Shown piece after piece: positions 60,823-62,354 of a stretch of DNA of 64,000 bases. A program made the translations under genes and the position numbers. How positions within the stretch are numbered: the stretch's first letter is position 1; each line of letters opens with the position of its first letter. Source of the DNA: Candidatus Pelagibacter sp. RS39 (GTDB taxonomy: Bacteria; Pseudomonadota; Alphaproteobacteria; Pelagibacterales; Pelagibacteraceae); assembly GCF_002101315.1 (NCBI RefSeq), contig NZ_CP020777.1, positions 620,001 through 684,000 of the forward strand, written 5' to 3'. The notes below the pieces were generated by a model. That model searched no databases and was not told the DNA's origin. It saw only the letters and a program-made list of their open reading frames with translations.

Positions 60823-60832
60823 TGTGCGTGGA

Positions 60833-60860
60833 TTAATACTATTAATAAGATCAAAGTCAA
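60833..60860 (-). promoter_or_regulatory. Probable promoter of rplM-rpsI
   Basis: Reading leftward, TTGACT (60860-60855) and TATTAA (60838-60833) are spaced by 16 bases, close to the sigma-70 pattern, 11 bases before the rplM start. In so AT-rich a genome such matches are common; the G and C in the -35 hexamer and the location support it. Confidence 0.5.
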
Positions 60861-60873
60861 ATTGATATTTTTA

Positions 60874-60901
60874 TTGTTTTAAGCCTTTTTTTTGTTATAT
60901 T
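60874..60901 (+). promoter_or_regulatory. Possible promoter of the metY leader
   Basis: TTGTTT and TATATT separated by 16 bases would start RNA at about 60907, exactly where the first riboswitch-like element begins. The -35 hexamer is weak, so the call rests mostly on position. Confidence 0.4.
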
Positions 60902-60905
60902 AATA

Positions 60906-60950
60906 ATGCCGATTTGTTCCTATTGCGGGCTTACAGCTAAAAAGGAAATC
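60906..60950 (+). promoter_or_regulatory. SAM-II riboswitch-like element
   Basis: The element has the SAM-II plan: a short P1 (GCC with GGC), a loop reading GATTTGTTCCTATTGC, and the 3' strand AGCTAAAAAGGAAATC. TTCCT in the loop (60917-60921) pairs with AGGAA (60943-60947), making the pseudoknot; the ATTTG, TATTGC and AGCTAAAAAGG blocks match known SAM-II sequences. P1 is only 3 bp, which is weak. SAM-II RNAs sense S-adenosylmethionine upstream of methionine genes in alphaproteobacteria, in agreement with metY here. Confidence 0.75.
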
Positions 60951-60962
60951 ATCATACAAACT

Positions 60963-61025
60963 CGGTAGGCATTTGAACTGTATTGTGCGCCTAGCATAAA
61001 GCTAAAGCACTAAAAAAGGAGTAAT
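60963..61025 (+). promoter_or_regulatory. SAM-V riboswitch-like element overlapping the metY ribosome site
   Basis: P1 is TAGGC (60966-60970) with GCCTA (60989-60993), closing a loop ATTTGAACTGTATTGTGC. GTGC in that loop (60985-60988) pairs with GCAC (61007-61010) as a pseudoknot, and AGCTAAAGCACTAAAAAAGG follows. The ribosome site AAGGAG (61016-61021) lies directly at the 3' end, so ligand binding could hide it. This fits the SAM-V class of marine bacteria, a SAM-II relative that acts on translation. Confidence 0.8.
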
Positions 61026-62354
61026 ATGAGTAAAAAAAGAAATAATCCTGAAACCATTGCCATACATGGTGGTGATTACAGAAGTGACCCAGCAACTAAT
61101 GCTGTTGCTGTGCCAATATATAGAACAACGTCATATCAATTTCAAAGTACTGAACATGCAGCAAATTTATTTGCATTAAAGGAATTTGGAAATATCTACA
61201 CAAGGATTATGAATCCAACTAATGATGTTTTAGAGAAAAGAATTGCAGCATTGGAAGGTGGATTATCTTGTGTAACGGTTTCATCAGGGCAAACAGCTTC
61301 GAGTTTTGCAGTTCTAAATGTTGCTCAATCAGGTGATAACATTGTTAGTTCTACGGATCTTTACGGCGGAACAGTTTCATTATTTACACATACCTTAAGT
61401 AAACTTGGGATTGAAATTAGATATGCTGATCCAAGTGATCCTAAAAACTTTGAGAAGGCAATAGATGATAGGACCAGAGCTTTTTATGGTGAGACATTAC
61501 CTAATCCATATTTGAGAGTGTTCCCTATCAAAGAAGTTTCTGATATTGGAAGAAAATATAATATTCCATTAATAATGGATAATACTGCTGCGCCAATTAT
61601 ATGTAAACCAATAGAACATGGAGCGGCCGTCGTTATACACTCATTAACAAAATATATTGGTGGACATGGAACTGCTGTTGCTGGAAGCATAGTTGATAGT
61701 GGTAACTTTGACTGGACCGCAGATCCTAAAAGACAACCTTTATTCAATGAGCCTGATGCAAGTTATGGAGGTGTTGTTTGGGGAAAAGCTGTACCAGAAT
61801 TAACCGGAGCTAATGTACCTTTTGCAGTCAGAGCAAGAGTTTGTTTGCTTAGAGATTTAGGTTCAGCTTTAGCACCAGATAATGCTTTTGCAATAATTCA
61901 GGGACTAGAGACCGTAGCTCTAAGAATGAAGCAACATTGTGAAAATGCTGAAAAAGTAGTTAATTTTTTAAAAAAACATAAAGAAGTAACTAAGGTTATA
62001 TATTCCACTGAACATGAGAAGAAAATAGCTGATAGAGCTAAACAATATCTTAAAGGTGGAAATGGACCAATGGTTGGTATTGAACTTAAAGGTGGTATTG
62101 AGGCTGGGAAAAAATTTATTGAGTCTTTGAAAATGTTCTACCATGTAGCAAACATTGGTGATGCAAGAAGTTTAGCTATACATCCTGCTAGTACTACTCA
62201 TAGTCAGTTGAACGAAAAAGAGTTAGCGGCATCAGGTGTGACTCAGAGTTATGTAAGACTTTGTATAGGTATTGAGCACATTGATGATATTATTGATGAT
62301 TTAGATCAAGCCTTGAACAAGTCATCAAAAGGAAGTTTAAAAGCTGTTAGTTAA
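61026..62354 (+). CDS. metY: O-acetylhomoserine sulfhydrylase (O-acetylhomoserine aminocarboxypropyltransferase)
   Basis: PLP enzyme forming homocysteine or methionine from activated homoserine and sulfide or methanethiol. The opening ETIAIHGGDYRSDPATNAVA, YTRIMNPTNDVLEKRIAALE, and the PLP-lysine motif SLTKYIGGHG with a downstream HPASTTHSQL are typical; the 442-residue length points to MetY rather than the shorter MetZ/MetB. It is preceded by tandem SAM-binding RNA elements and a strong AAGGAG site. For a SAR11-like cell that relies on reduced sulfur, control of this step by SAM makes sense. Converges with ctaA over 8 bases. Confidence 0.93.
   Translation: MSKKRNNPETIAIHGGDYRSDPATNAVAVPIYRTTSYQFQSTEHAANLFALKEFGNIYTRIMNPTNDVLEKRIAALEGGLSCVTVSSGQTASSFAVLNVAQSGDNIVSSTDLYGGTVSLFTHTLSKLGIEIRYADPSDPKNFEKAIDDRTRAFYGETLPNPYLRVFPIKEVSDIGRKYNIPLIMDNTAAPIICKPIEHGAAVVIHSLTKYIGGHGTAVAGSIVDSGNFDWTADPKRQPLFNEPDASYGGVVWGKAVPELTGANVPFAVRARVCLLRDLGSALAPDNAFAIIQGLETVALRMKQHCENAEKVVNFLKKHKEVTKVIYSTEHEKKIADRAKQYLKGGNGPMVGIELKGGIEAGKKFIESLKMFYHVANIGDARSLAIHPASTTHSQLNEKELAASGVTQSYVRLCIGIEHIDDIIDDLDQALNKSSKGSLKAVS

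Follow-up and report, generated by a model that had tools for sequence, protein, structure and literature searches.

The metY leader and its elements

The window analyzed here is a stretch of 64,000 nucleotides from the 1.2-Mb genome of an abundant marine bacterium, Candidatus Pelagibacter sp. RS39 (GCF_002101315.1, NZ_CP020777.1, positions 620001-684000). On its plus strand, metY (61026..62354) encodes an O-acetylhomoserine (thiol)-lyase of 442 aa (TIGR01326, 574.6 bits; cut-off 495.1). The gene is preceded on the same strand by a predicted promoter (60874..60901), a compact element assigned to the SAM-II type (60908..60948) and a SAM-V riboswitch (60958..61024). A preliminary description of this DNA had placed two such elements in this order ahead of metY and listed core blocks common to them (ATTTG, TATTG, AGCTAAA, and AAAGG). 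The order was borne out, and both copies of the blocks are present in the sequence. Taken as a whole, the leader folds no better than shuffled sequences (z 0.06). For comparison, the matches listed and additional chosen stretches gave at least 174 stretches with the compact element, which represent at most 159 distinct places and 151 unique leaders (113 of metY and 38 of mmuM).

The identity of the second element is certain. An Rfam scan, which the preliminary description had suggested, matched RF01826 to 60958-61024 with 84.7 bits (gathering score 41, E 1.5e-12). P1 is formed by 60967-60970/60989-60992 and P2 by 60985-60988/61007-61010. The 3' end of the element is the Shine-Dalgarno (SD) sequence AAGGAG (61016-61021), with metY starting at 61026, which confirms that it reaches the ribosome-binding site. 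The element fully matches known SAM-V (RF01826; metY structure 6FZ0), and SAM binding has been demonstrated for the homologue ahead of metY in HTCC1062 (PMC6061858, in the part consulted). Unlike SAM-V as known from these sources, compact metY leaders pair the two letters before P1 with the 5' end of the RNA, and P1 is not lengthened. Among 83 compact metY leaders with distinct SAM-V parts, 65 have a P1 of exactly 4 bp, and in none of the 83 does position 965 take part in P1 pairing. Mean P1 length is 4.17 bp in this group compared to 5.27 bp in 11 terminator-type metY leaders; in terminator-type bhmT leaders it is 4.33 bp (24 leaders, two without a gene call).

Transcription very probably starts at G60908, which is +1 in the promoter register. 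The predicted promoter consists of the TTG of a -35 element (60874-60876), a TG at 60893-60894, and the -10 hexamer TATATT (60896-60901). When the 113 metY leaders are aligned on G60908, an extended -10 promoter stands at a fixed distance (TG at -15/-14 in 90%/90%, T at -12 in 90%, A at -11 in 92%, and A at -9 in 84%). The 38 mmuM leaders carry TATAA at -12 to -8 in the same register (T at -12 in 86%, A at -11 in 89%, T at -10 in 86%, and A at -9 in 94%). A strict consensus promoter scan of 60823-61100 reported no promoter. Given the predicted start, P1 of the first element and the linking stem described below would share the first ten letters of the RNA, GCCGAUUUGU (60908..60917, plus strand), and their exchange would be 5'-terminal. 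Within this strand, 60908-60910 is the 5' side of P1 and 60911-60915 is the conserved L1 strand.

No terminator follows the first element, as the preliminary description had stated. By a scan that recovers the terminator of L219, a leader with terminator-type SAM-II, the region 60823-61100 contains 0 terminator-like sites. The longest T run is 3-4 in 137 of the 151 unique leaders and 5-6 in the other 14, including metY of HTCC1062, so a weak terminator is possible in those 14. Six T stand directly after or beside the GG of P2 in L232 (metY of G209, the genome matching HTCC1062), L049, L060, L071, and L246; in these leaders a weak exit resembling a terminator may follow the first aptamer.

Affiliation and distribution of the compact element

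The first element has a P1 of 3 bp (GCC/GGC, 60908-60910 with 60928-60930), and the 5' side of P1 is followed by GAUUU, CC, UAUUGC, and GCUAAA in this order. Its pseudoknot P2 pairs 60918-60920 with 60944-60946 and 60923-60926 with 60936-60940, and 60927-60934 is an extra pair. The columns of GATTT, CC, TATTGC, GCTAAA, and GG do not vary in 35 sequences selected from 73 distinct elements. GCTAAA is kept in 151/151 unique leaders and the next GG in 150/151; GATTT and ATTGC were prerequisites of the search pattern used for these leaders. Judged by P1 and P2 pairs kept through both-sided changes, the element fits SAM-II, and three such pairs were found in the 35 sequences. P1 changes once from GC to AU, P2a changes twice from UA to AU, and the P2 pair 927-934 is GC in 23 sequences, AU in seven, UA in one, and unpaired in four. 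The covariation score was above 500 of 500 shuffles and the cells with both-sided changes were equalled by 18 of 500, while the three remaining covariation measures gave no excess over shuffles in the same sequences.

The preliminary description had also suggested an Rfam scan for SAM-II, and here the result was negative: the first element has no match to any model up to E 10. Seven compact leaders compared with the Rfam SAM-II models gave no match at E up to 5. Across 12 loci, Rfam reported SAM-V in nine, and SAM-II models only at metX, below cut-off. This silence says little, because the same library (RF00521 and RF01726 alike) misses the terminator-type SAM-II of L033 and L219; for this reason SAM-II may be under-annotated in SAR11. 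RF00521 at E 10 has matches in all 14 control genomes.

Three home-made covariance models were applied. R1 was built from compact elements, so its score of 65.3 bits for the window element is circular. It also weakly matches SAM-V (60968-61021, 10.6 bits, E 0.88), as expected from the core common to both elements. R2 is a SAM-II model of 24 elements, and its scores are partly circular since 14 of the 24 were obtained through R1; it places 60904-60950 first in the window at 35.0 bits, followed by a match of 13.3 bits. Some R2 training sequences, such as L179, are short in P1 themselves. Genome-wide, R2 finds metX (a training member), metY (E 1.7e-6), and mmuM (E 2.6e-6). A fourth match (1157960, E 0.02) was inspected and rejected, as its sequence contains no SAM-II-like leader. 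In G209, both R1 and R2 detect the compact element ahead of metY and mmuM, and R2 gives 29.4 and 31.1 bits, respectively, and 14.5 for the next match. R3 was built from 13 elements independent of R1 (metX of this genome and 12 terminator-type elements). With R3 the window element reaches 12.7 bits, which is rank 4 in the window and not significant, and the compact element is absent from the R3 genome lists of RS39 and G209.

From these comparisons, the first element is tied to SAM-II by graded intermediates, by its core, and by covarying pairs, with no direct match to the long form. It has in common with SAM-II (RF00521, RF01726) the core GAUUU...AUUGC...GCUAAA and an H-type pseudoknot. It differs in its minimal P1, in a distance of only 4-9 nt from P1 to the last block, and in falling below detection by the Rfam models and R3. 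Elements ahead of metX in other genera (gene by reading) form a graded series between long and short P1. The first element is likely to bind SAM.

The compact element together with SAM-V occurs in the 151 unique metY and mmuM leaders of the genus Pelagibacter, and SAM-V is present in 100 of 201 genomes of the genus. A genus survey covered 131 loci, of which L015 (contig end), L133 and L137 (terminator type) were unparsed, and L135 (terminator type), L239 (misparsed), and L062 (incomplete 5' end) were left out as well. In the parsed part, the compact element stands in 71 of 75 metY leaders (70 and L063) and 35 of 35 mmuM leaders, and bhmT leaders are of the terminator type in 15 of 15. The only genes at which the compact form was observed ahead of SAM-V are metY and mmuM. 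Four weak SAM-V matches added later, outside the 151, are one compact mmuM leader and three metY leaders that do not have the compact element. A further set comprises 42 leaders, with L260 assigned to mmuM and L299 and L307 counted as metY by reading. In genera g5 and g6, nine of nine metY leaders fetched are of the terminator type. R1 has matches in 173 of 397 genomes across the order; best E-values do not exceed 1.2e-8 within the genus and are no lower than 5.5e-7 elsewhere. In a scan of named genomes (at least 80 loci), SAM-V lies downstream in 77 and is lacking in two mmuM leaders, and one locus is truncated. Viral contigs gave 0 matches to an exact pattern.

Some related arrangements were seen in other genera. 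L179:1501-1560 (G490) and L180 (G461) contain a lone SAM-II with GCC/GGC before metX (by reading), and the element is followed by AAAUCGC, which is complementary to its 5' strand. L193:1501-1620 (G301), at metY of another genus, contains a SAM-II-like element GTCGATTTG...GGAC. SAM-V was not seen in this stretch on reading, and AAGTCGA and GACT downstream could pair with the 5' strand of the element.

The linking stem

The preliminary description had proposed an alternative stem between CCGATTTGT (60909-60917) and ACAAACTCGG (60956-60965). This stem of 9 bp with one bulged C was recovered. It is nested around the P2a pairs and thus cannot coexist with P1 and L1 of the first aptamer; it adjoins P1 of SAM-V without a gap, as described earlier, and is conserved in metY leaders. 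RNAalifold predicts it unprompted from the 113 metY leaders, with a probability of 0.98 or more in columns 2-6. The 3' strand, ACAAACUCGGU (60956..60966, plus strand), contains the motif T[CT]GG[TC]. In 113/113 unique metY leaders this motif directly adjoins SAM-V P1, and the other linker letters are variable. The motif is present in 34 of 35 further metY leaders and in 0 of 17 metY leaders that do not carry the compact element (11 of the terminator type, L081, L108, L138, L386, L387, and L388).

Energy calculations point in the same direction. The best fold of 908-966 contains at least four stem pairs in 113/113 metY and 36/36 mmuM leaders (L128 and L139, two of the 38 mmuM leaders, have no P1 by pattern and are outside the energy counts). 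The predicted mean gain from the stem is 5.9 kcal/mol in metY and 4.5 in mmuM, compared to 1.7 and 1.1 with the strand letters shuffled and 0.7 kcal/mol with terminator-type linker ends instead (first 60 leaders). A leader's own gain exceeds the 95th percentile of letter shuffles in 87/113 metY and 19/36 mmuM leaders, and the best fold of the complete leader includes the stem in 99/113 and 25/36. Dinucleotide shuffles of the 14-nt strand retain TCGG, and the contrast with them is small (metY, own -8.99 against -7.26, 11/113 below p 0.05; mmuM, 5/36 below p 0.05). Energies that include AGGC of SAM-V P1 were not used for significance.

The preliminary description had named covariation as a check on the stem. 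One end of the stem covaries; most of the other pairs cannot, because the 5' strand is conserved for the sake of the aptamer. In the 113 metY leaders, ACA stands opposite U917 in 36 of 41 and opposite A917 in 14 of 72, a motif that was picked after viewing the data. Pagel's dependent model was preferred (LR 18.5, p 0.001, simulation 0/4000; tree of 112 of the 113), and in the further 35 metY leaders ACA accompanies U917 in four of six and A917 in five of 29 (one-sided p 0.027). L105 and L139 have C910 changed to U together with G964 to A, and L109 and L233 have G908 changed to A with U on both partners. Most mmuM leaders use another stem register (UUGAU/AUCAA and GC/GC), with a C.U or C.A mismatch at 910-964. 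There the stem ends 0-3 nt from SAM-V P1, often not flush, and in the mmuM consensus fold UGCC extends to the P1 strand GGYA. We consider it probable that the linking stem is the SAM-free alternative of the first aptamer.

In six mmuM leaders that contain the compact element, Rfam reports no SAM-V (L319, L250, L251, L254, L256, and L257; L327 is the same leader as L250). In each of the six, the start of mmuM is open. Four of them retain the linking strand. In L251, L254, and L256, eight letters, GAUCAAAU, face AUUUGAUC, and 31, 19, and 19 of 1000 shuffled linkers, respectively, are as strong. In L250, CAAUUCGG faces CCGAUUUG, with two of 1000 shuffled linkers as strong. The strand is weak in L257 (145/1000 shuffles), and L319 has none (740/1000). 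Retention in four of six indicates that the stem can be present on account of the first aptamer only, and its main role is likely to concern that aptamer. The L250 strand ends 9 nt ahead of the start codon and would cover the ribosome site.

Masking of the start codon by the linker was considered and not adopted. In metY, the natural linkers pair less well than shuffled ones (-3.83 vs. -4.50), and in mmuM the pairing (-7.12 vs. -5.40) is strong in a subgroup only. In that subgroup, for example L002:1490-1575, the linker CCAUAAUAAUC is complementary to the stretch from the SD to the start codon over up to 11 bp. Complementarity of this type is not general and may be due to chance.

Published tandems and possible roles of the first aptamer

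A SAM-II/SAM-V tandem has been published for Pelagibacter ubique, with SAM-II ahead of an intrinsic terminator (PMC9481103, in the part consulted). The preliminary description had noted that tandem SAM-II/SAM-V leaders are known from marine Pelagibacter-type bacteria. The metY pair is not the published tandem: the published SAM-II precedes a terminator, and none is present here. The two arrangements have the same aptamer order, the same genus, and SAM-V at the ribosome-binding site (consulted parts of PMC9481103 and PMC11508383). However, P1 of the published SAM-II is long and an intrinsic terminator follows, whereas the metY leader has a 3-bp P1 and no terminator site. Compact leaders also differ from the published tandem in a distance of 22-32 nt from the P2 GG to the SAM-V core TTTGAAC and in the 5'-terminal linking stem. 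The metY/mmuM pair is real, conserved, and distinct from the published terminator tandem. Three of the four SAM-V matches in G209 (those listed) fall inside the intergenic regions of bhmT, metY, and mmuM given in Table 1 of PMC2704228, where bhmT is assigned SAM-II/SAM-V and metY and mmuM are assigned SAM-V alone. SAM-II is placed at bhmT and metX in the consulted part of PMC5069961. We found no mention of the compact element at metY or mmuM in the consulted portion of the SAM-riboswitch literature, a portion that does not cover the 2009 SAM-V description (RNA 15:2046).

Several roles can be considered for the first aptamer. The two aptamers may be independent (pseudo-cooperative), each binding SAM alone, with the linking stem as a by-product. 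SAM-V is compatible with either fold, and the SAM-II/SAM-V tandem has been described as non-cooperative (PMC9481103, consulted part). Independence would leave the first aptamer with no visible output, as there is no terminator site and about 70 nt separate its 3' end from the SD, and the invariance of T[CT]GG[TC] in 113/113 leaders among otherwise variable linker letters also speaks against it; we regard this explanation as unlikely. A relay to SAM-V, in which the stem of the empty first aptamer props or hinders SAM-V and the two sites read SAM as one unit with either sign, appears rather less likely still. The stem is flush with P1 in 113/113 metY leaders, P1 is shorter there than in terminator-type metY leaders (4.17 against 5.27 bp), and the mmuM consensus fold brings UGCC to the P1 strand GGYA; but terminator-type bhmT leaders have a likewise short P1 (4.33 bp), the contact in mmuM is often not flush, and the linking strand is kept in four of six mmuM leaders that lack SAM-V. 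The idea of cross-talk between the elements, raised in the preliminary description, is thus weakened: the stem is real, conserved, and flush, but it is compatible with SAM-V and persists in those four leaders. By pairing, stem and SAM-V can coexist, and in metY their helices meet without a gap, which would allow stacking and makes coupling possible. Functional coupling of the first element to SAM-V is, overall, doubtful.

Two other explanations seem improbable. Since GCC of the first aptamer is complementary to GGC of SAM-V P1, the stem might only capture the 5' strand against invasion of SAM-V. When the stem strand is masked, 55/113 metY leaders form at least three pairs between the 5' strand and the SAM-V P1 strand, yet such pairing is seen in only 3/36 mmuM leaders, and the stem is kept in leaders lacking SAM-V. 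It is similarly improbable that, within the full leader, the first element has lost SAM binding and the stem is permanent. The linker of the published bhmT tandem does block SAM-II in refolded RNA (PMC11508383), but core and pseudoknot pairs of the compact element are kept or covary, which is expected only if the aptamer fold is used.

The explanation that we tentatively prefer is that the first element of the metY leader may be a 5'-terminal SAM-OFF strand-exchange switch that operates with no terminator and takes the place of the terminator in the published tandem. The first aptamer would be complete after about 41 nt and would likely sample SAM during transcription. When SAM is absent, the 5' strand would exchange the weak P1 of 3 bp for a pairing with 60956-60966, at a predicted gain of about 6 kcal/mol. 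The resulting stem would hide the 5' end and likely keep the message, and in metY it would abut the short SAM-V P1; SAM-V would then govern translation reversibly. When SAM is present, the 5' strand would stay with the first aptamer and the linker would remain unpaired. The message would then likely be shorter-lived, with RNase E as one possible agent, and this loss would add to the block that SAM-V imposes on translation. An RNase E/G is encoded in the genome (E 3.8e-97). That the output of the first element acts on mRNA level is plausible, and we put it forward with the same caution. Somewhat more speculatively, the first ten letters might be a moving strand, held either by a sensor that met SAM during transcription or by a capping helix, which in metY would dock flush on SAM-V. 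What becomes of the 5' end of the RNA would then be settled with neither a terminator nor a masked ribosome site, and surviving messages would be handed to SAM-V. In the Escherichia coli lysC riboswitch, ligand binding exposes RNase E sites. That system resembles the one proposed here in coupling ligand to mRNA decay beside translation; its ligand and fold are different, and for the metY leader we infer the decay.

In sulfur-limited exponential HTCC1062, metY mRNA is increased 7.14-fold and mmuM mRNA 6.08-fold, and MetY protein is increased 2.24-fold under sulfur limitation (PMC5069961, Table 1). These figures are compatible with an OFF switch; blocked translation alone can also lower mRNA.

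In the sources consulted, metY and mmuM of HTCC1062, the SAR11 strain studied most thoroughly, are described as carrying SAM-V alone, yet their mRNAs rise 6- to 7-fold under sulfur shortage. A purely translational switch offers no direct explanation for such a rise, and a second aptamer with a conserved strand exchange at the 5' end would be a testable cause of it. Natural leaders with and without SAM-V let the two roles of the first element be separated. The first element likely gives the cell a second way of turning the gene down when SAM is plentiful.
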